This document shows, piece by piece, positions 24,455 through 53,144 of a stretch of DNA of 53,959 bases; the first letter of the stretch is position 1, and every line of letters begins with the position of its first letter. This DNA is from Candidatus Woesearchaeota archaeon CG10_big_fil_rev_8_21_14_0_10_37_12 (GTDB taxonomy: Archaea; Nanobdellota; Nanobdellia; Woesearchaeales; ARS49), in contig PCYA01000019.1 in NCBI GenBank assembly GCA_002762795.1, forward strand, positions 1 through 53,959, given 5' to 3'. The notes beneath the pieces were generated by a model, which was not told where the DNA came from, searched no databases, and saw only the letters and a program-made list of their open reading frames with translations. The translations under genes were made by a program, and so were the position numbers.

Positions 24455-25573
24455 ATGAAAACGATGACAAAACTAGCGATAACAATGCTACTTGTGCTGC
24501 TTCTTTTCGGCTGCAAATCTTCAGAAGAAACTACATCAATAGGAGTTATTTCTGCACTCACACAGCATGGAGCTGATTGGGGAACAGAAGAAAAAAACGC
24601 CATCGAGCTTGCTGTTGCAGAAATAAATATTGCTGGCGGAATTGATGGTAAACAAATCAAGCTGATTGTTGAAGACTCTGGAACAGATCCAACAAAAACC
24701 ATTACTGCGTACAAAAAACTTACAGAAGTAAATGGTATTAAGTTTATTGTTGGGCCAACATGGGAAGCAAGCACAGCAGCAATAGCACCGCTCGCTGCCA
24801 AAGAAAACGTTCTGCTTATATCTCCTTCAGCATACAAAAACATACAAAACCAAAACAGCTCGCATTTGTTTTCTACATATCCGCCGTACTATTACGAAAT
24901 ACGCGGCTTAATTCCTTTTTTTGAAGAACACAACATGACTCGGTTTGTCATTATTTATCACAATGAATACTTCAGTGAACTGATGAAAAACTTTTTTGTT
25001 AATGAAGCTGAACAAAACAACTGGACTATTTCAAAAACATTAGCACGAGATGTAGAAGATAGAGACTACAGAACAAGTTTGTTGCAATTAAAGAACTTAA
25101 ATATTGATGCTATTTACGCACCGCTTGCAGTAGACGATCCTGATTTAGGCTTGTTAATGAAACAAATGCGAGAACTTGGGATCAATGCAACAGTTGTTAG
25201 TGCATCTTCAGCGGAGAATGTTAATTTGTTGAAAAATTTTGCAACAGAAATTGAAGGAATAATTTACCCGTACCCTGTTGAAACACCAGCGTATTCATCC
25301 TTTGCTGAAAAATACAAACAAAAATATGGAGAACTTCCACACACGCCAAGCGCAGCAACGGCATACGATGCAACTACATTGTTAATTGATGCTCTCAAAT
25401 CGGGTGCGGAAACACCAGAAAAAGTTGCAAAATATTTACACAATATTACTGACTATCAAGGAGCTTCAAACGTGATTAACTTTGATGAACAAGGGGTAAT
25501 TTCCAGCAAAGAACATTTTGTGAAAACCGTAAAGAATGGAGAATTTGTCGAGATTGAAAAAACTAGCGAATAA
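24455..25573 (+). CDS. LivK-like periplasmic-type binding lipoprotein 1
   Basis: This 372-residue protein starts with a lipoprotein signal (LLVLLLFGC, Cys about residue 22) and continues with the type I binding fold of branched-chain amino acid receptors: GVISALTQHGADWGTEEKNA, DSGTDPTKTITAYKKL, VGPTWEASTAAIAPLAA and TAYDATTLLIDAL. No permease or ATPase gene is near. It would capture amino acids, peptides or other small ligands outside the membrane. The ATG has a TATA box 25 bases upstream. Its last 11 bases overlap the convergent regulator gene at 25563. Confidence 0.88.
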   Translation: MKTMTKLAITMLLVLLLFGCKSSEETTSIGVISALTQHGADWGTEEKNAIELAVAEINIAGGIDGKQIKLIVEDSGTDPTKTITAYKKLTEVNGIKFIVGPTWEASTAAIAPLAAKENVLLISPSAYKNIQNQNSSHLFSTYPPYYYEIRGLIPFFEEHNMTRFVIIYHNEYFSELMKNFFVNEAEQNNWTISKTLARDVEDRDYRTSLLQLKNLNIDAIYAPLAVDDPDLGLLMKQMRELGINATVVSASSAENVNLLKNFATEIEGIIYPYPVETPAYSSFAEKYKQKYGELPHTPSAATAYDATTLLIDALKSGAETPEKVAKYLHNITDYQGASNVINFDEQGVISSKEHFVKTVKNGEFVEIEKTSE

Positions 25574-25990: not shown

Positions 25991-26260
25991 ATGGTTAAAC
26001 TTAATCAAGAAGATCATTCAAGAATCAAAAAGAACACAATCAAAAAGCTTTATTCAAATCAAGCATTCAGCAAAGGACATTTGTTATACGAGCGATTACA
26101 ATCTGGAATACCTACACATTTGCAAGGTTTTGTGAAAAATATCCTTGATGAGTTAATTAAAGATGAACTTGTTTTAATTTATGGCAAAACAAAATATGGA
26201 ATTGCTTATCAACTCAATATTAAGAAATTAAAAGAAATTGAGGCATATCTCGAAATTTAA
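25991..26260 (+). CDS. Small winged-helix-like protein
   Basis: This 89-residue protein resembles a compact winged helix without recognised family: helices in KNTIKKLYSNQAFSKGH and VKNILDELIKDELV, then a wing-like TKYGIAYQLN. It is transcribed from its own promoter and is directly followed by the second LivK-like gene. It may regulate that gene, but this is inference from position. Confidence 0.65.
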   Translation: MVKLNQEDHSRIKKNTIKKLYSNQAFSKGHLLYERLQSGIPTHLQGFVKNILDELIKDELVLIYGKTKYGIAYQLNIKKLKEIEAYLEI

Positions 26261-26301
26261 TGATGGAAAAACATAAATATACAATATATAGAAATTGCTT
26301 T

Positions 26302-27405
26302 ATGAGAAAAACAGTAATTACGATAATATTTGGATTGTTTTTTCTTTTTGCGTGCACCAGTGAACCAACAGAAACACAAGATGTTGTTGAAGAAATCAAG
26401 ATCGGTGTTTTATCGCCAATAACTGGACCTTTGCCACACTTTGCAGAAGACTTGAAAGAATCATACGAACTTGCAATTGATGAATTTAACCAAAAACATA
26501 CAGATAAAAAAATCAAACTTATTTATGAAGATACAAAGTGTATTGATCTTAAAGCAACTACAACTGCCTTGAAAAAACTTAAAGAGGTTGATGATGTTGT
26601 AGCAGTATTGGGGCCTTTCTGCGGCGGTACAAATGTTGTTACAGGCGAATTTTCAAAAAATAATGACTTGTTCGTCATATCTCCTGGAGATAACTTTGAC
26701 AAACAAAGCAATTACAAGTTTAACACAAGATACTTAATCAAAAAAGAATCAGAATTACTAGCAGAATATGCTCTGAAACAAAACTGGACAAAAATAGGAA
26801 TAATTCACTACAATAATGAATGGGGGCAAGCATACCGAGATAATGTGAGACGTGTAGTTGAGAACGCTGGCGGAGAAATTGTTGGAGCAGAAGCATACAC
26901 ATTTGATGACTTAAATGTGCGAACATCTTTGCTTAAATCTGTAGAGAACGGAGCAGAAGCGTTGTTTATTTTAGATGGCACGCAAGGAGAGCTTTTTGAA
27001 CAAGTTATAGAACTGGGAATAAAACTGCCAATAATTACAGAATGGGAAATTGAACTTGCTTCTCCTGAACGAAACAAAAACATATTTAATGGAGCAGTAT
27101 ATTTTCTGCCAGTTGGAGAAGAAACAGACTTCCACAAAAAATTTATTGAACGTTATGGAGAACAACAAATCAATATGGTGCATGTAGATGCATACGATGC
27201 AGCAAAAATATTAACATTAGCTCTTGAAGCTTGCGAAGATTACTCTATTGACTGCATGGCAGATTACATTAAATCACTCGAGAATTATCAAGGAGCTGGT
27301 GGAAAACTTACATTTAATCCTGACACGTGGAGTTTTGAAAAACCATTCATTGCAAAAACAGTCAAAAATGGCGAGTTTGTTAACTTAGAAGAAGCTACTG
27401 AATAA
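26302..27405 (+). CDS. LivK-like periplasmic-type binding lipoprotein 2
   Basis: The start at 26302 gives a proper lipoprotein signal (MRKTVITIIFGLFFLFAC) and lies 26 bases after a TATA-like box (about 26272-26280). The 367-residue mature sequence follows the LivK pattern: GVLSPITGPLPHFAEDLKES, KTAVLGP-like AVLGPFCGGTN, and HVDAYDAAKILTLAL. It is a clear paralogue of the protein at 24455; both end with the same motif (TVKNGEFV). It lacks any neighbouring transporter genes. Its ligand probably differs from that of the first copy. The last 11 bases overlap the convergent small gene. Confidence 0.87.
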   Translation: MRKTVITIIFGLFFLFACTSEPTETQDVVEEIKIGVLSPITGPLPHFAEDLKESYELAIDEFNQKHTDKKIKLIYEDTKCIDLKATTTALKKLKEVDDVVAVLGPFCGGTNVVTGEFSKNNDLFVISPGDNFDKQSNYKFNTRYLIKKESELLAEYALKQNWTKIGIIHYNNEWGQAYRDNVRRVVENAGGEIVGAEAYTFDDLNVRTSLLKSVENGAEALFILDGTQGELFEQVIELGIKLPIITEWEIELASPERNKNIFNGAVYFLPVGEETDFHKKFIERYGEQQINMVHVDAYDAAKILTLALEACEDYSIDCMADYIKSLENYQGAGGKLTFNPDTWSFEKPFIAKTVKNGEFVNLEEATE

Positions 27406-44592: not shown

Positions 44593-45366
44593 ATGCAACT
44601 CAAACTCAACCTGAACAAAACAATTCAGCAAAGTGCTAACGAATATTTTGAACGCGCAAAAAAAGCGCGAAAAAAAGCAGAAAAAGCGCAGGAAACAGTA
44701 AACAGATTCAAAAAAGAAGTTGAACAATTAGAGAAAAAACAAGGAGATTTTGAACAGGAACAAAAGGAAAAGACACAAAAAATTACTCGAAAACAGGAAT
44801 GGTATGAAAAATTCAGGTGGTTTATAAGCTCAGAAGGATTCCTCTGCATTGGAGGCAGAGATGCAACGACAAATGAGATCGTTATTAAAAAGCACATGGA
44901 CAAAAATGATTTGGTGTTTCACACAGAAGCGCCAGGCAGCCCGTTCTTTGTTGTAAAAACAAACGGGAAAACGCCTGGAGAAAAAACAATACAAGAAGCA
45001 GCAGATGCAACCATCACTTTCTCAAAAGCTTGGAAACTTGGCTTGGGCACAACAGAAGCATATTACGTAACCCCTGATCAAGTCAGCAAACAAGCACAAA
45101 GCGGAGAATACATGCCAAAAGGAGGCTTTATGATACGAGGCAAAAGAACTTACGTGCCTGGCAAAATAAACCTTGCAATTGGTAATTATGATGAAACTGC
45201 AATGGCAGGACCAGAAGAAGCTATTAAGAAGAACTGTACAGGCTTTATTGTTGTAAAACAAGGCAAAGGAAAACCAAGTGATTGCGCAAAAAAAATCGCA
45301 AAACAATTAAAGCTACCTATTGATGACACATTACGATCGCTCCCAGCAGGAACGTGCGAGGTATAA
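44593..45366 (+). CDS. NFACT-R (DUF814) protein lacking the NFACT-N domain
   Basis: This 257-residue protein has a coiled-coil start (about residues 15-70) followed by NFACT-R (DUF814): KFRWFISSEGFLCIGGRDAT, HMDKNDLVFHTEAPGSPFFV, KAWKLGLGTTEAYYV and KGGFMIRGKRTY. Full-length RqcH/Rqc2 proteins are 550 or more residues with an N-terminal NFACT-N domain; only the C-terminal half exists here. The family binds stalled large ribosomal subunits and peptidyl-tRNA in quality control. The gene directly precedes a CRM-domain gene with no gap. A separate NFACT-N gene may exist outside the window. Confidence 0.87.
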   Translation: MQLKLNLNKTIQQSANEYFERAKKARKKAEKAQETVNRFKKEVEQLEKKQGDFEQEQKEKTQKITRKQEWYEKFRWFISSEGFLCIGGRDATTNEIVIKKHMDKNDLVFHTEAPGSPFFVVKTNGKTPGEKTIQEAADATITFSKAWKLGLGTTEAYYVTPDQVSKQAQSGEYMPKGGFMIRGKRTYVPGKINLAIGNYDETAMAGPEEAIKKNCTGFIVVKQGKGKPSDCAKKIAKQLKLPIDDTLRSLPAGTCEV

Positions 45367-45663: not shown

Positions 45664-47268
45664 ATGGCAAGAGACAGCGCACGTTTTGTAGCATATGGAT
45701 TCACAAAAGAAAAACTAGGAGATAATCCTACATTTACTGTAGGCGGCAGAAAAATTACAATAAAAGGAAAAACAGGCTCAGAAAAACTCAAAAGCATCAA
45801 AGAGGAGATGAAAAAACTTGAAACAGACGGACTTGCAGGAGAGTTTGAAAAAGTATTGGAAGCTGCTGCAGATCATGAATGGATAGAAGTATCAAAACAC
45901 CAACTAATAATGAGCAACTATCCAAAGTCAATAAAAAGATATTACGCAGGCATTGAAAGCTGGCAGCAAAGCGTTGAAAATTATTACTACTGGATTCTTG
46001 ACTTTCTTGGAGCATTAGGTTTTCCAGTCATAGACAAAATAACAGACACATTTACAGCAGCAGAACACAGCAGTTTTTACGGAGCAGCAGGGCAACGATT
46101 AGGATTAGCACAAGACAAAGTAGGACAATATCTTGCAACTATTGGAAAAATGATCAAAGACATGTTCCAATTAGTAAGAGAGCTAAGATGGATTGATGAA
46201 AGACTGGAAACATACTATGGAAGCATGGGATTAGCGCCAGATGGAAAAACAAAACTAGAAAAACCAGAAGCAAAAGAAGGACACGAACTTGCCCTAAAAG
46301 GATTATGGGTAGACATGGTAGACGGTGTTGTACAAGGACAACGAACAGGCAGTAATTTATTTACAATGGCGCAACAACTACAATTTACAACACTGCCAGA
46401 CTTATTCTTCTCAGCAAATGTAGAAGATGCAAATAAAGTAGTTGAAATTGTCGAAAAACAATTTGGAGAATTTAACACACAAGTTAAAAACGCACTCAAA
46501 AGAAAACTTACACAATATCTGACTTGGAAATCATCAACATTCCAAGAAATCAAAAACAGAAAAACGTTCACACTCAAATATCTGAGCCAGCACTACCAAG
46601 CAATACGATTATACATAACATGGATAAAACCATATCTCAAACACATTGAACGTTTAACTCCTGCGCAAGACGTGTTCAACAATCCAAGACTAATCTCCGC
46701 ATTTGAAAGCAGCCTAATTGAAATAGAAGTGCTGGCAAAACATAGGCCAAAAGGAAAAAGCAAATCATTCACATGCATATTGGTAACAATAGAATATCAC
46801 ACAAAACCAAGCATGCAATATCAAGGCGATGCAGGCTATCACAGAGGACCAATACATGTCGGAAACACAAGAATAACATGGAGATCATATGCGTGGACTG
46901 AAAAACAAGTTGAAAACTATAAAAAAATGAGAGACATGGCTGACTTAGAAACACTTGCAAGCGTAGATGAAACACTTAAAGTAGCAATGGAAGCCCTAGG
47001 AGAAGATATAGAGAAATACTTAAAACAAGCACAGGAAGGAAAACCAGAAGAAGAAAAAAAGGAAGATAAAAAACCCCTTGACATTCTTGAACCTTTCACT
47101 GCACTGGGAAAAAGCATGACAGATGTATTCGGATCATTAAAGCCAACATCTCCATTCGGAAAAAAGAAAAGCAGTAGCGAAGAAGAAGCTGATAAAGGAT
47201 CGGCAAAAACGTTCTGTTTTGTAGCCTACAACATTTTCAAAAAAGCACACGGAATGCTGAGTTGGTAG
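45664..47268 (+). CDS. Large uncharacterised cytosolic protein
   Basis: I do not recognise this 534-residue protein. No signal peptide or membrane segment is seen. Aromatic-rich helical segments are frequent (IESWQQSVENYYYWILDFLG; VRELRWIDERLETYYGS), a basic stretch lies near residues 360-375 and the C-terminal region is charged and low-complexity (EEEKKEDKKPLD; KKKSSSEEEAD). A TATA box (45621-45630) and AAGAGG site support the start. Codon use is strongly A-ending, like that of the TIM-barrel gene at 51213. Confidence 0.78.
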   Translation: MARDSARFVAYGFTKEKLGDNPTFTVGGRKITIKGKTGSEKLKSIKEEMKKLETDGLAGEFEKVLEAAADHEWIEVSKHQLIMSNYPKSIKRYYAGIESWQQSVENYYYWILDFLGALGFPVIDKITDTFTAAEHSSFYGAAGQRLGLAQDKVGQYLATIGKMIKDMFQLVRELRWIDERLETYYGSMGLAPDGKTKLEKPEAKEGHELALKGLWVDMVDGVVQGQRTGSNLFTMAQQLQFTTLPDLFFSANVEDANKVVEIVEKQFGEFNTQVKNALKRKLTQYLTWKSSTFQEIKNRKTFTLKYLSQHYQAIRLYITWIKPYLKHIERLTPAQDVFNNPRLISAFESSLIEIEVLAKHRPKGKSKSFTCILVTIEYHTKPSMQYQGDAGYHRGPIHVGNTRITWRSYAWTEKQVENYKKMRDMADLETLASVDETLKVAMEALGEDIEKYLKQAQEGKPEEEKKEDKKPLDILEPFTALGKSMTDVFGSLKPTSPFGKKKSSSEEEADKGSAKTFCFVAYNIFKKAHGMLSW

Positions 47269-47380: not shown

Positions 47381-47923
47381 ATGGCAATAGATTTTAACTC
47401 AGTAAAAGACCTGCCTCCAGAACAACGTGCAGAAGAAATTCGCAAAATAATTGAACTTCTCAAAAAAGAAATAGAAGAACGTGAAGAAGACATTAAAACA
47501 GCAGAACATTTAATCGGAATCGCAGAAAATGAATCAATAGTAATTGAGAGAGAAGAATTATCTGGCTTGCTTAAAACCACAACCAAAAAAGAAAAACCTC
47601 TTGAAAAAGAACTTGAAACGCTCATACAGCAGGAACGTGTGCAAAGAGATGAAATACAGCAACTAGCCAAAAGACCAATAGCAGAAATATATACTGAAGT
47701 ACGTGCAATCTATGCTAATACTCAGCAAGGAAACTTAAGCAATCAGGATAAAGACAGGCTTTACACTATTTCCCAAATAGTTTACCAAAAGCAAAAAGAT
47801 ATTGAACAGGGAAAATATAATGCTGGTAATCAAGCAGGACACTTGCTTAACGCAGCAGAAGAACTAATTAAACGCACAGAATACGAAAGCAGACATTTAG
47901 AAAACACATATAAATCTACTTAA
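47381..47923 (+). CDS. Coiled-coil protein
   Basis: This 180-residue charged protein is mainly helical with a strong coiled coil at about residues 10-90 (EIRKIIELLKKEIEEREEDI; KEKPLEKELETLIQQERVQR). The TATA box ATTTTATAAACC (47349-47360) gives a leaderless start. It converges on the SecA-like gene with a 4-base overlap. Function unknown. Confidence 0.75.
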   Translation: MAIDFNSVKDLPPEQRAEEIRKIIELLKKEIEEREEDIKTAEHLIGIAENESIVIEREELSGLLKTTTKKEKPLEKELETLIQQERVQRDEIQQLAKRPIAEIYTEVRAIYANTQQGNLSNQDKDRLYTISQIVYQKQKDIEQGKYNAGNQAGHLLNAAEELIKRTEYESRHLENTYKST

Positions 47924-50900
47924 TGCGTTAAAACACCAATTTCTTTAAAGAAAGTTTTATCTCCCATACATTTTTCGTCAAGACTTCCGCTTACAGCTAA
48001 GAGCGCGTCAAAAACATTTTTTGCCGCATCACCAAGCAAACGTCTTCTCAGCTCACCATGTTCTCTCACCAAATTTACTCTATGATCGCTGCTTATTCCG
48101 CCAGATTCCAAACTCCCACCAGAACCAGTAAACACTTCAACATCCTTCACGTATTGTGTTACTGCCTGTGAAACATTGTCAATTGCAGCACCCAACACAA
48201 ATCTTTTTCTTGAGGTATCAAGGCCATCCCACAAGTGTTTAATTCTCCAATCAAACATGTCAATTGCTTGCTCTAAACTCTCAGAATTTCTAATATCCTC
48301 AGATGAAATGCCTAACACTCTGGCATGATCATCAAGCACATGAATTGTTCCATTTCTAACTGCTAAAGATCTTACGCGGGCAATATATCCTTCAATAAGC
48401 CTTTCATCAACTTTCTCTGGTTTTTCAAATTCATTAATTAAACCTCTTTTCAGGCTTCTTAACTGAGTTAAGAAAGCATTCTTAGAAGTATCTCTTTGCC
48501 AAGTAGCATATCTTTCATTATACGCATATCTTTGTATTTTATTCTGCACACCACGTAATATTTTGTTCACTTCAGAAGACTGAACGTATTCTCCATCTCC
48601 AAGATCTGCTACCAAATAATCCAATCTCTCACGAGGACAATAAACTGCACCAAACCTTGTTTTAGAAAATTTTTTTATACGCGCTTTTTTGCCAAATGCA
48701 GTACTAACTGCATTTGTAAACCTATTGTTTGTTAACTTGTGAATCAATCCATCTTTAGATGTTCCATCACACTTATTTTTTTTGGAGAACTCTTCATCAA
48801 ATCCGTATGGCAAAAAATTTTTGATATTATCATCATCAGTACCAACATACCAAACAGAAGAACCAGGATCTCCTTGTCTGCCAGACCTTCCATTTGCCTG
48901 TCTTTCCAAGCTTTGAGTGTCTGGTAAACCAACACCAATCATTCTCAAGCCATATAGTTTTGTAAACTCTGCAAGCTTAATATCTGTGCCTCTGCCTGCA
49001 ATCTGTGTAGCAATAATAACACTTCCTGGTTTTCCTGCATGCTTAATCACTTCTGCTTCTAATTTTTCCTCTTCATAAGTTGTTGCAGCATTCAACAATT
49101 TTGCATCAATACCGAGATAATTCTTAACACAATCATGAAGTTCGTCAGATACATCATCTGAATCAGCAATCATCAAAACAGGCTGGTTTTTCTCATGCGT
49201 TGCAACTAAGTCTTCTATTGCAGCTACACGAGCATCATATTTATCTTTAAATAACTTGAAACCATACACGCTTGCTTCGTCAAAACGCTTTAATGGCTTG
49301 CTGTCTCCTTGGTGATCATGTCTAGGAATCTGAACAACATCAAGACCGTAAATTTCTCTAAACTCTTCCTTATCTGCAACTGCTGTACCACTCATTCCTG
49401 AAATCAAATCATACTGTGTCAAAAAATAATTCTGCAAAGAAATTTCTTCTGCTTTAATATTTTCAGGAAGAGGCTCAAGTCCTTCTTTGGCCTCAATTGC
49501 TTCATGCAAGCCGTCATTTAATCTTTGCCCTACAAGCAATCGCGAAGTAAAATTATCAATACTATGCACCTCACAAACACGCAGGACTGTTTCTTCCTTG
49601 CCACGTTCATTAATAATTTTAGTTTTGTAAACGTTTGGAACATGTTTTCTTTGAGCAATTAATTTTTCTTCCTCTGCTGTTAGTGGCCTTGATACAACAG
49701 AATAATCTTCATCTTTTTTCAAACACACATGAGCTCTGAGTACATTAATGATATCGTGCCCAATTGAGCTGTAGAAATCCCCTCTATTGGGAAAAGAATC
49801 CTCACTTACTCCAAGTTCTGAAAGCTCGCTTTTAATCGTAGGAGAACTCAAAAGTAATTCCAGTCTTTTTTGGCCATTTGGTGTAAGGATTGTTTTAATT
49901 GTTCCTGGTTTAAAGACCACATCAGAATCATATAAATTTCCTGAAGCATCATCTTCAGAATCCGCTTCGAATTTTAATGATTTTGTTCCGTCATCATCAG
50001 GGCTCAGCTCGTCCACACTAAACAGTAATTCACCCTCATCATCTGTAAGAGCCTTATTCAGTACAGAATATGCTGCTCCAGTATTTCTCTTTTCTCCACT
50101 GACTATATGAGGTGTTTTTCCTTTATTGATCAAAACATCATCTGCTTCATCAACAATCGCTGCCAAAGCTTTACGAGAACGACGCCATGACAGTTTGTTA
50201 TTCGCATGATTATCCTGCAAAAAATCAAATGCGAATTCCTGATTATGCCCATACGTAACATCAGCATCATATTCAATTCTTCTCTCATCAATGCCCAAGC
50301 TTTTCTTAATAAGACCAACACGTAAACCAAGTTGATCAAATAACAACTGCATTTCTTCTGCATCACGTTCTGCAAGATAAGCATTTGGCGTAACAACATG
50401 AACTCCCTGACCATCAAGTGCTTGCAAACACGCTGCTAATGCCGCACTCAATGTTTTACCTTCACCTGTTGCCACTTCTGTAATCTGCGGTTGTGATAAA
50501 GCGTATGCTGTCCAAAATTGCTCGTTATATGCTGAAGAGATGTTCCAGCCAATATCTTCACTTGCAGTATAAACCCGTCTAATACCCTCTTGTGCTAACG
50601 CGAACACTTCAGGAGCAAACTTTTTGATCTCTTTTTCACGTGCTTTCAAGTATTTTCTTTTTACCTGTTGAATGTTTTGTTCTGCTGCTCTGCCCTCCTG
50701 AGCAAAACCAAGAATGTTGTTTTCCAGAGATTTGACTGTTTCATATTCCTCTTTTAACTTGCCAAGATTTGCATCAAACTTCTTGCGCAAGCCAGCATAT
50801 GCTTCTTTTAGATCAACTTGACTTAAGTCAGTTGTCTGCGTTATTCTGTGAATTCTGTCTGTAAGTTTTCTGTACACTCGTGATAATTCCCTCTCTTTGG

Positions 50901-51030
50901 GACGTAAAAAAGATGCACCTTCATAAACTCCTTCAACAACTTCTTCAACAAGAGAAATTGGCCTATATCGTCTTGGATCTATATTTAATCTGAGTCTGTT
51001 AAGGTAGTCACTTTGCTTACGTTTCATCAT
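47920..51030 (-). CDS. secA: SecA-like preprotein translocase ATPase
   Basis: The ATG at 51030 follows GGTGA (51037-51041), so the TTG one codon upstream is not needed. This 1,036-residue protein has the SecA motor in order: Walker A EVATGEGKTLSAAL (about residue 185), VHVVTPNAYLAERDAEE, YGHNQEFAFDFL, Walker B IVDEADDVLI (about 290), a preprotein cross-linking region, LNDGLHEAIEAKEGLEP, LISGMSGTA, motif V ATQIAGRGTDIKL and motif VI RSGRQGDPGSS. Compared with bacterial SecA there is an N-terminal extension of about 80 residues, DEVD is DEAD, and the C-terminal zinc tail is absent. SecA is a bacterial export motor and is normally missing from archaea. Confidence 0.9.
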   Translation of the reverse strand: MMKRKQSDYLNRLRLNIDPRRYRPISLVEEVVEGVYEGASFLRPKERELSRVYRKLTDRIHRITQTTDLSQVDLKEAYAGLRKKFDANLGKLKEEYETVKSLENNILGFAQEGRAAEQNIQQVKRKYLKAREKEIKKFAPEVFALAQEGIRRVYTASEDIGWNISSAYNEQFWTAYALSQPQITEVATGEGKTLSAALAACLQALDGQGVHVVTPNAYLAERDAEEMQLLFDQLGLRVGLIKKSLGIDERRIEYDADVTYGHNQEFAFDFLQDNHANNKLSWRRSRKALAAIVDEADDVLINKGKTPHIVSGEKRNTGAAYSVLNKALTDDEGELLFSVDELSPDDDGTKSLKFEADSEDDASGNLYDSDVVFKPGTIKTILTPNGQKRLELLLSSPTIKSELSELGVSEDSFPNRGDFYSSIGHDIINVLRAHVCLKKDEDYSVVSRPLTAEEEKLIAQRKHVPNVYKTKIINERGKEETVLRVCEVHSIDNFTSRLLVGQRLNDGLHEAIEAKEGLEPLPENIKAEEISLQNYFLTQYDLISGMSGTAVADKEEFREIYGLDVVQIPRHDHQGDSKPLKRFDEASVYGFKLFKDKYDARVAAIEDLVATHEKNQPVLMIADSDDVSDELHDCVKNYLGIDAKLLNAATTYEEEKLEAEVIKHAGKPGSVIIATQIAGRGTDIKLAEFTKLYGLRMIGVGLPDTQSLERQANGRSGRQGDPGSSVWYVGTDDDNIKNFLPYGFDEEFSKKNKCDGTSKDGLIHKLTNNRFTNAVSTAFGKKARIKKFSKTRFGAVYCPRERLDYLVADLGDGEYVQSSEVNKILRGVQNKIQRYAYNERYATWQRDTSKNAFLTQLRSLKRGLINEFEKPEKVDERLIEGYIARVRSLAVRNGTIHVLDDHARVLGISSEDIRNSESLEQAIDMFDWRIKHLWDGLDTSRKRFVLGAAIDNVSQAVTQYVKDVEVFTGSGGSLESGGISSDHRVNLVREHGELRRRLLGDAAKNVFDALLAVSGSLDEKCMGDKTFFKEIGVLTH

Positions 51031-51036
51031 CAATAG

Positions 51037-51149
51037 TCACCGCTTCTCTATGCTGCAAAAACGAGTCGAACATTTATAAATCTTTCTATTTTGTTGTCCT
51101 TAAAAAGTAGTTATTTTTGTAGCAAATATCGCATAAATGTTTAAATACT
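51037..51149. promoter_or_regulatory. Divergent promoters (SecA-like / TIM-barrel protein)
   Basis: The minus-strand box GATTTATAAATG (about 51071-51082) with a 20-base leader carrying GGTGA serves the SecA-like gene. The plus-strand box ATGTTTAAATACT (51137-51149) serves the gene at 51213, whose leader contains repeated GAGAGT/GAGTCGGAGT motifs and no clear Shine-Dalgarno. Confidence 0.55.
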
Positions 51150-51212
51150 CAGTAGCCTAAAACGTATATTGGTAAAAGGTTGAGAGTAAAGAGTCGGAGT
51201 AGAGAGTGAAAA

Positions 51213-53144
51213 ATGGTAGAATTTAACTTAGGAAGACCGCAACAAGCAGATACTTGGGGAGATGAGCTTACAATAGAAGAACCAATAGCACCAATTTCTC
51301 AACTAGGTGAAACAATCCCAGAACATGATGCAACTGGCAGATTCAAAAACGTAATACAAATCGCGCAAGCAGCAATCAGAGGCGGAGCAGGAACAATGCA
51401 ACTCATGTTCCAAACAGCACACACATCACCAATGGGCGGCAGGCCAAAAGCATACGGCAAAGAAATCAGAGAAACATTAAAAGAAGTGCAAATGGCAACA
51501 GGAGCAAACATTATTGGAGCAGAAATGCCAACAAGCAGCTTTAACAATGCATCAGGATTTGACTACCAACAATTTATATTTTCTGAAGACAAAAGAAAAG
51601 AACAACTCGATGAATTAAAAGACGCAATGAAATTTATGGCAGACGTTTCAAAAGGAGGAGCAATAGATAACGTATCGTGGGAATTTCCACGCGCAGTAAA
51701 CGATGCAGACTGGCAAAAAAAAGATCCGAACTTTCACAAAGAAGGAGAACAAAGAATAGGATTTTTAGTAGATGAACGAACAGGACGAACAACACAATTC
51801 AGAAAAGACGAAATACAACACATTCCTTATCACGGAGCTGACAAAGGATTCAAACCACTAGACCCTGCAGATCTTGAAAAAGCAAAAAAAGAAGGACTAG
51901 GATTAACACAATTCAAATGGGATGATTTTGTTACATGGGCAGAACACAACAAGCAACAAAACGCCCAAAAAAAGCTCAAAGAAATAGATCCAGAATATCA
52001 GTATGAAACGCCTGAACAATTATACATCAAAGTGCAATTAGAAGGACAAATTAAAACAATGAAAGGTTGGAGAACACACTACCTAGACAGAGCAGACCAA
52101 GTAAGACAAGCAAGAGATCAGGCAAAAGAACGTATGAATCTGCCAAACATTTCTGAAGATGACAAAAAACTAGCACGACGAGAAACAGAGAAATTTGATT
52201 TAGAATACAAAGACTATCTGAACAGTGCATTTGGACAAGATCAGCAAGCGACAGATCTGGAACAAAGATACAAGCACTACAAAACAATCAACAAATATGC
52301 AATGGACAAAAGCACAAGAACATACGCAGAAGCAGGAATTTTTGCAATGCAAGAAACACAACGATTACTCGCAAAAGAAAAAACTGGAGTAAAACCAATA
52401 CATATTGGACCAGAAATCGGCTGGCCAGACTACTATGGAAGCCACCCAGAAGAATTCATGAATGTTATCAGAAGTTCAAGAGACAGAATGGTAGACTTAC
52501 TCACAACACAAAAATTCAAAGAATTTGATCCTGCAGAAGGAAAAGAAAAAGAAAAACCAAATCCACATTATAATCCAGGGATGTCACAAGCAGAAGCACG
52601 AAAGCTAGCACAAGAACACATCAAAGGAACCTTTGACACAGGACACATGGCAATGTGGCTCTCACACTTCAAACCATTAACAAACGAACAAGGACAAATA
52701 ATAGAAACAGAAGAACAAAAACTACAAAGATTCAACAAGTGGTTCAACAAACAAGTAGAAACATTAGCAAAAGCACCAGACAACCTTGTTGGAGGAATTC
52801 AATTAGTAGACAGCGCATCAGCAGCACACGGACACCTGCCGCCAGGAGAAGGAATATTTCCAGTAATTGATGCAGCAAAAATATTCCAAAAAGCAGGATA
52901 CAAAGGATGGATGGTATCAGAAGGACACGAAGAAGAAAAATTCGGAGAAGGAAGAATAAGAACAAAACTCTGGCAACATGCAGGAGCAAAATTCGGAACA
53001 GGCGGATACTTCCAAGGAGCACCACTAAGCTGGAGAAGCGTACAAAGCGGATACTTTGCACGAACATACTCGCCAATGCAGATGTTCGGCGGTTATTCTC
53101 CAAGCAACGAATTTAAATTATGGAGCGAAGTGCCATTGGAGTAA
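51213..53144 (+). CDS. Xylose isomerase-like TIM-barrel protein with large insertion
   Basis: This 643-residue protein has TIM-barrel strands typical of xylose isomerase/AP endonuclease-2-like proteins: IIGAEMPTSS, KPIHIGPEIGWPDYYGS with a candidate metal Glu (about residue 401), GTFDTGHMAMW with Asp/His (about 471-475), IQLVDSASAAHGHLPPGEG (about 530-548) and GWMVSEGHEEE with a Glu (about 567). The family is normally 270-300 residues; here about 200 extra helical residues (about 190-385) lie between barrel segments. Role unknown: sugar-phosphate isomerisation, or DNA-abasic-site cleavage, would fit the fold. Confidence 0.78.
   Translation: MVEFNLGRPQQADTWGDELTIEEPIAPISQLGETIPEHDATGRFKNVIQIAQAAIRGGAGTMQLMFQTAHTSPMGGRPKAYGKEIRETLKEVQMATGANIIGAEMPTSSFNNASGFDYQQFIFSEDKRKEQLDELKDAMKFMADVSKGGAIDNVSWEFPRAVNDADWQKKDPNFHKEGEQRIGFLVDERTGRTTQFRKDEIQHIPYHGADKGFKPLDPADLEKAKKEGLGLTQFKWDDFVTWAEHNKQQNAQKKLKEIDPEYQYETPEQLYIKVQLEGQIKTMKGWRTHYLDRADQVRQARDQAKERMNLPNISEDDKKLARRETEKFDLEYKDYLNSAFGQDQQATDLEQRYKHYKTINKYAMDKSTRTYAEAGIFAMQETQRLLAKEKTGVKPIHIGPEIGWPDYYGSHPEEFMNVIRSSRDRMVDLLTTQKFKEFDPAEGKEKEKPNPHYNPGMSQAEARKLAQEHIKGTFDTGHMAMWLSHFKPLTNEQGQIIETEEQKLQRFNKWFNKQVETLAKAPDNLVGGIQLVDSASAAHGHLPPGEGIFPVIDAAKIFQKAGYKGWMVSEGHEEEKFGEGRIRTKLWQHAGAKFGTGGYFQGAPLSWRSVQSGYFARTYSPMQMFGGYSPSNEFKLWSEVPLE

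Follow-up and report, generated by a model that had tools for sequence, protein, structure and literature searches.

The window is the whole stretch of DNA that was analysed, bases 1–53959 of a 54,896-base contig in an archaeal genome of 1.35 Mb and 19 contigs (the source genome, G000), which is estimated to be 99.1% complete and 0.7% contaminated. Towards the right end of the window is a gene whose product is very likely a SecA homologue, although a strongly diverged one. The gene and those around it are as follows.

44593–45366, + strand: NFACT-R / RqcH C-terminal gene, the first in a conserved archaeal block
45664–47268, + strand: protein of 534 amino acids, function unknown, present in 23 out of 26 family genomes
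47381–47923, + strand: coiled-coil gene of 180 amino acids, in convergent orientation to SecA; bounds a variable slot on the left
47920–51033, − strand: SecA homologue of 1037 amino acids, with a TTG start; the ATG at the next codon, 51030, is an alternative
51213–53144, + strand: TIM-barrel (AP_endonuc_2) gene, in divergent orientation to SecA; bounds the variable slot on the right

The stand-alone NFACT-R gene (44593–45366) matches only the C-terminal part of archaeal RqcH and aligns end to end in relatives. The 534 residue protein (45664–47268) has no confident Pfam match and is a conserved lineage-specific gene.

The SecA gene itself carries these features, where G392 is the genome with the closest relative of the window SecA.

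50452–50469, − strand: Walker A, TGEGKT, residues 189–194; invariant in 48 aligned SecAs
50140–50151, − strand: Walker B, DEAD, residues 295–298; also DEAD in G392, DEVD or DEID in most SecAs
49558–50097, − strand: preprotein cross-linking (PPXD) region with lineage-specific insertions, residues ~313–492, from SecA_PP_bind and the strands and helices of the model
48973–48996, − strand: motif V, GRGTDIKL, residues 680–687
48868–48900, − strand: motif VI, QANGRSGRQGD, residues 712–722
48424–48579, − strand: long helix of the helical scaffold domain, residues 819–870, from hhalign and the model
47989–48216, − strand: two-helix-finger-like hairpin, residues 940–1015 (helix pair 940–968 / 982–1015), of low to moderate model confidence
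48091–48129, − strand: Gly/Ser-rich finger tip, residues 969–981, replacing the RGYAQKDP-type tip usual in SecAs

The gene is a single uninterrupted frame of 1037 codons at 47920–51033 on the − strand, whereas the longest frame from 300 shuffles of the flanking 14 kb was 196 amino acids. Three Pfam models match the protein above their cut-offs: SecA_DEAD (6e-69), P-loop_SecA (5e-27) and SecA_PP_bind (2e-8; 35.4 bits against 23.5), the last over its C-terminal half only, at residues 461–514. The wing-and-scaffold model SecA_SW has no match in the window SecA. Weak matches to the Pfam DEAD and Helicase_C models are also present, however the SecA models outscore all other families by a wide margin, and a sequence search of the PDB (E ≤ 1e-3) returned only SecA or SecA2 (24 out of 24 matched sequences). 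All eight NCBI models for SecA and SecA2 score far under their cut-offs, at 262 to 375 bits. The equivalog models TIGR00963 and NF009538 miss their thresholds of 800 and 814 at 373 bits and the SecA2 models miss theirs of 725–1100 at 262–334 bits. With 373 bits against 800–814, the window SecA should be seen as a derived member of the family.

Of four features looked for as marks of the family, three are present, while the fourth, the helical scaffold and wing domain with its two-helix finger, is supported only in part. There are two RecA-like nucleotide-binding domains (NBDs) with TGEGKT, DE[VA]D, GRGTDI and Q-x(2)-GRxGRQGD; the PPXD is inserted in NBD1, as seen from SecA_PP_bind and the model; and the fold is like that of solved SecA over its full length, with bacterial SecAs among the alignment input. 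The sequence SGMSGTA is found at residues 545–551. The catalytic motifs are intact, and SecA homology runs along the protein. The N terminus is ~60 amino acids longer than usual and the zinc-binding C-terminal tail is absent from the sequence. Such a tail is not universal among bacterial SecAs either.

An AlphaFold2 model of the window SecA, made with the 48-sequence alignment, has a pLDDT of 70.6 and a pTM of 0.68. The first 36 Foldseek matches to this model in the PDB are all SecA, the best being 1tf5 (E 7e-42), and the TM-score on B. subtilis SecA 3jv2_B is 0.81 over nearly the full length. The first match that is not SecA is RapA (E 3e-8), more than 30 orders of magnitude weaker than the best SecA. 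Because the alignment contained bacterial SecAs, which favours a SecA-like answer, the fold is no independent discovery. The model of the G392 SecA has a pLDDT of 79.7, with the same Foldseek outcome.

The C-terminal half, which is the weakest in sequence similarity, is also SecA-patterned in the window model: it has a scaffold helix, lesser wing helices and two antiparallel helices at the place of the finger, all modelled with low to moderate confidence. In the profile-profile comparison with bacterial SecA C-domains, hhalign recognised the scaffold helix (82.7% over 57 columns, P 9.5e-6; 0.2–0.3% for shuffled profiles) and did not recognise the finger. The G392 SecA narrowly passes SecA_SW (27.4 against a cut-off of 26.7). 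The first-pass annotation, made from the sequence alone, had described a complete SecA-like ATPase with all of the main motor motifs, an extended N terminus, DEAD for DEVD and no zinc tail. These claims held, with TGEGKT, motif V, QANGRSGRQGD and the cross-linking region all confirmed. The word 'complete' needs the qualification that SecA_SW is silent and that the wing and scaffold of the C-domain are backed by hhalign, for the long helix only, and by the model. The structural check that it proposed gave a SecA fold, and a different helicase, which it had named as a refuting outcome, was not borne out.

The setting of the gene is archaeal. On the same contig, archaeal-type models identify aEF-2 and Cbf5 with scores well over their cut-offs, and archaeal or eukaryotic-type models match eL8 and eS28 slightly below theirs. 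The composition of the SecA gene (GC 37.8%, GC3 25.6%, codon correlation 0.90, tetranucleotide 0.85) is within the range of its neighbours. Synteny was examined in detail in six relatives (G328, G375, G075, G384, G149 and G012), all of which keep the order NFACT-R, 534 residue gene, coiled coil and TIM barrel; the coiled coil of G012 was identified as an open frame and not by tblastn. Compared with these six, SecA between the coiled-coil and TIM-barrel genes is found in the source genome only. The slot between them holds nothing obvious in G328 and G375. The other four relatives have small genes in the block, which by eye are NUDIX-like, four-helix-bundle, or glyoxalase-like with further frames. 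These extra genes sit on either side of the coiled-coil gene, which is inverted in G075. With the block kept and the slot variable in the relatives, SecA has either been inserted into this variable part of the archaeal chromosome or been retained there. It is therefore very likely that the SecA gene is native to the archaeon, a conclusion that rests on the gene block, the composition and the archaeal neighbours in the absence of read-coverage data. More generally, this archaeal family has a small site of variable content around the coiled-coil gene (47381–51213 in the window and L142–L149 in relatives).

The genome holds one SecA_DEAD gene, one ordinary archaeal SecY and SRP54-type GTPases. 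The claim that archaeal ribosomal genes on the contig speak against simple bacterial contamination also held, with aEF-2, Cbf5 and, slightly under its cut-off, eL8 identified by archaeal or eukaryotic-type models. The proposed check of the tetranucleotide profile found no break, and the slot in the archaeal gene block is empty of SecA in the relatives.

Beyond what had been claimed, SecA genes are present in eight further genomes of the phylum, several of them much more canonical than the window SecA. The genomes searched were those of the phylum (371), order (353) and class (378), which partly overlap, and included no other archaeal phyla. With the source genome, nine genomes are counted as archaeal with SecA: G000, G392, G381, G233, G314, G524, G369, G575 and G604. 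Among the searched genomes of the source family, SecA is found elsewhere only in G381, and is of a different type. The closest relative is in G392, the published bin 'uncultured archaeon isolate AM-sed-core3-D1_bin-502', and is 31% identical to the window SecA by BLAST over the whole comparable length. The G392 gene is split over two contigs, the ends of which (end of L035, start of L033) overlap by 307 bases at 93.5% identity; two strains or two SecA copies are therefore possible. The SecAs of G314 and G604 exceed both NCBI equivalog cut-offs (852 and 876 bits against 814; 833 and 849 against 800). A canonical-like finger tip is kept in G381, G233, G314, G604, G369 and G575. Most SecAs of the phylum are far more canonical than that of the window, however G524 is also strongly diverged.

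Neighbours of SecA that match archaeal models are uS2 in G369, an archaeal PGI/PMI in G233 and the universal archaeal protein arCOG04150 PUA in G381. G314, G524, G575 and G604 are taken as archaeal on the strength of their bins. A single SecY is present in 10 of the 12 genomes tested; in G381 and G524, both of which are incomplete, none was found. Two further bins were left out of the count. In G446, filed under the archaeal order, a partial secA lies beside murB on contig C54 (L036), which is probably bacterial contamination of the bin. In G286, the GC-rich SecA locus first raised suspicion of contamination, but its SecY locus is just as rich in GC (62.5% and 63.5%) and the case was left undecided.

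Two of these SecAs, from two archaeal genera of one family, have inserts. That of G369 (L029:3242–7546, 1434 amino acids) has a PHP-type (phosphoesterase) insert, confirmed by Pfam, right after the Walker A segment, and a coiled-coil insert. That of G575 (L176:1131–5081, 1317 amino acids) likewise has both, the PHP-type insert being placed right after the Walker A segment by alignment.

The proposed phylogenetic check used a motor-domain tree of 48 sequences and 494 columns under LG+C20. Three clades made up only of archaeal SecAs are well supported: the window SecA and that of G392 as sisters (100/100), G369 with G575 and G524 (97/92), and G314 with G604 (98/92). All nine archaeal SecAs lie on one side of a branch with a support of just 30/82. 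In an earlier set without G575 and G604, the grouping of the archaeal sequences was neither shown nor rejected (AU p 0.18). Unions of the window clade with Patescibacteria (AU p 0.125), Bacillota (0.46) and the PVC secondary SecA_DEAD proteins (0.67) are all not rejected, and no bacterial donor is therefore named. For two of these unions the constrained tree scored higher, which means that the tree search was not exhaustive, and in this panel the branches are too long for the donor to be determined. Neither a single origin nor the bacterial donor is resolved. The suggestion that the gene is a lateral gain or a specialised motor is supported, without a donor.

A scan of genome and viral contig collections with the single protein found no close relatives of the window SecA, and a scan of viral contigs with an alignment of the two archaeal SecAs found nothing. 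In phage and plasmid collections the only matches were bacterial SecAs of low identity, many of them in what is apparently chromosomal DNA within the records. Four such records (OR844989, OR844990, OR846764 and OR848568; L119–L122), entered as phages of Listeria or Staphylococcus, contain bacterial genes of the secA and secA2 types and are likely to be host chromosome contigs.

The window SecA shares with SecA1 the NBD1, PPXD, NBD2, scaffold helix, a modelled finger-like hairpin and all of the ATPase motifs, as well as the predicted fold of B. subtilis SecA. It differs in being in an archaeal host with an archaeal SecY, in having ~30% identity to bacterial SecAs and scores under the curated cut-offs, and in its longer N terminus, DEAD Walker B, insertions, altered tip and lack of a zinc tail. 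Like SecA2, the accessory Sec motor of Gram-positive bacteria, it is diverged, has a changed finger tip (as in the S. aureus type) and has no zinc tail. SecA2 co-exists with SecA1, however, whereas this is the sole SecA in a 99% complete genome, and it does not group with SecA2 in the tree, where its placement is unresolved. The secondary SecA_DEAD proteins of Planctomycetes and Verrucomicrobia (PMC4452313) likewise have SecA ATPase domains and strong divergence, and a clade shared with them is among those not rejected. These proteins lack all or most of the wing and scaffold (~640–760 amino acids in the panel), while the window SecA keeps a C-domain of ~290 amino acids with the scaffold helix. 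With the other DPANN SecAs (G392, G381, G369, G575, G233, G314, G604 and G524) it shares one phylum and a sporadic occurrence, with G392 as its sister; it differs from most in being much less canonical, from G369 and G575 in having no PHP insert, and G524 is strongly diverged in its own right.

In bacteria, SecA holds the chain in a clamp between the PPXD and the NBDs, its two-helix finger enters the funnel of SecY, and cycles of ATP move the chain (PMC5963308, PMC6599042). By inference, the window protein would be a bacterial-type SecA, acquired laterally by a DPANN lineage, a label itself inferred from the size and gene content of the genome, and kept as a working ATPase. ATP would be hydrolysed in the cleft between the two NBDs, for which there are no biochemical data. 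An unfolded chain would be held in the clamp formed by the cross-linking domain, and the two-helix finger would push it into the sole channel, the archaeal SecY, with which there are no interaction data. The predicted outcome is a post-translational export route beside the SRP/ribosome route of the genome. An added post-translational motor for SecY is the simplest inference, since the ATPase, the clamp elements and a modelled hairpin at the finger position are kept and the genome has only one channel. This reading is supported by the G392 relative, which gives the same fold at higher confidence, by the SecA domains above cut-off, and by SecA and SecA2 being the only sequence matches of solved structure. 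Counting against it are the missing canonical finger tip, the silence of SecA_SW, the low to moderate confidence of the C-terminal model and the lack of the gene in the other searched genomes of the family, apart from the different type in G381. The altered finger tip suggests a motor for a small set of substrates, rather in the manner of an accessory SecA2, and not one for bulk export. The SecYs of SecA-bearing genomes have no obvious loop difference from those of SecA-free relatives, in a comparison that leaves out the wrongly extracted frames of G286 and G075, and there is therefore no sign of SecY co-adaptation. On balance a laterally gained, SecY-linked SecA motor is modestly favoured, with the SecY partnership, ATPase activity and translocation all being inferred. 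Given the altered tip and the high divergence, it is a serious alternative that the protein serves a narrower set of substrates, and another that it works apart from SecY.

The alternative that survives best, and remains possible, is that a SecA descendant has been repurposed in the cytoplasm and has given up SecY, acting instead as a polypeptide unfoldase or a nucleic-acid-dependent ATPase, the tip change reflecting lost channel insertion. In its favour are the Gly/Ser loop in place of the tip, a score less than half of the SecA cut-off, a SecY without visible change, and the bacterial secondary SecA_DEAD proteins, in which little or nothing of the scaffold domain is left and for which no part in the Sec pathway has been demonstrated (PMC4452313). 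Against it, the scaffold helix, PPXD and finger-like hairpin are retained, related archaeal SecAs have canonical tips, and the tip is changed as well in the SecA2-type sequence from S. aureus (L122). An assembly chimera or bacterial contamination of the bin is very unlikely. The sporadic distribution of SecA, and the probable contaminant with murB in G446 from the same search, could be taken to suggest it. However, the gene is in a variable slot of a conserved archaeal block, its composition matches the contig, a whole-length homologue with archaeal-type neighbours is found in an independently assembled archaeal genome (G392), and a search of the genome contig collection found no close bacterial relative. 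A different DEAD-box or Snf2-type helicase merely resembling SecA, to which the DEAD motif and the weak DEAD and Helicase_C matches might point, is all but excluded as far as sequence and fold allow, since the best match of the window protein is not to a non-SecA helicase family, the SecA models are far ahead of every other, non-SecA structures are more than 30 orders weaker in E-value and a PPXD-like insertion is present.

Beyond the favoured SecY-linked motor, a bolder reading would be that part of the DPANN runs SecA-driven post-translational export via archaeal SecYE-beta with its own archaeal SecA lineage, from one old acquisition followed by spread and loss in the phylum, the window protein being a specialised late form with a rebuilt finger. 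This reading is possible but less likely than not.

According to a 2010 review, archaea have no SecA motor homologue (PMC2910488). The open-access literature on SecA with DPANN, Woesearchaeota or Nanoarchaeota yielded no report of one in an archaeon, and PMC9938205 mentions secA only within a list of genes pooled from CPR and DPANN. The protein family itself is not new; within the open-access literature searched, the new element is its sporadic presence in archaea in several forms. SecA in archaeal genomes would mean that an archaeal SecY can take a motor grafted from bacteria. This would bear on what drives post-translational export in archaea, which is unsettled, and on the transferability of Sec motors between domains. 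The canonical-like DPANN copies make the question of grafting directly testable.

Elsewhere in the window, two neighbouring substrate-binding proteins of the Peripla_BP_6 type are encoded on the same strand at 24455–25573 and 26260–27405.
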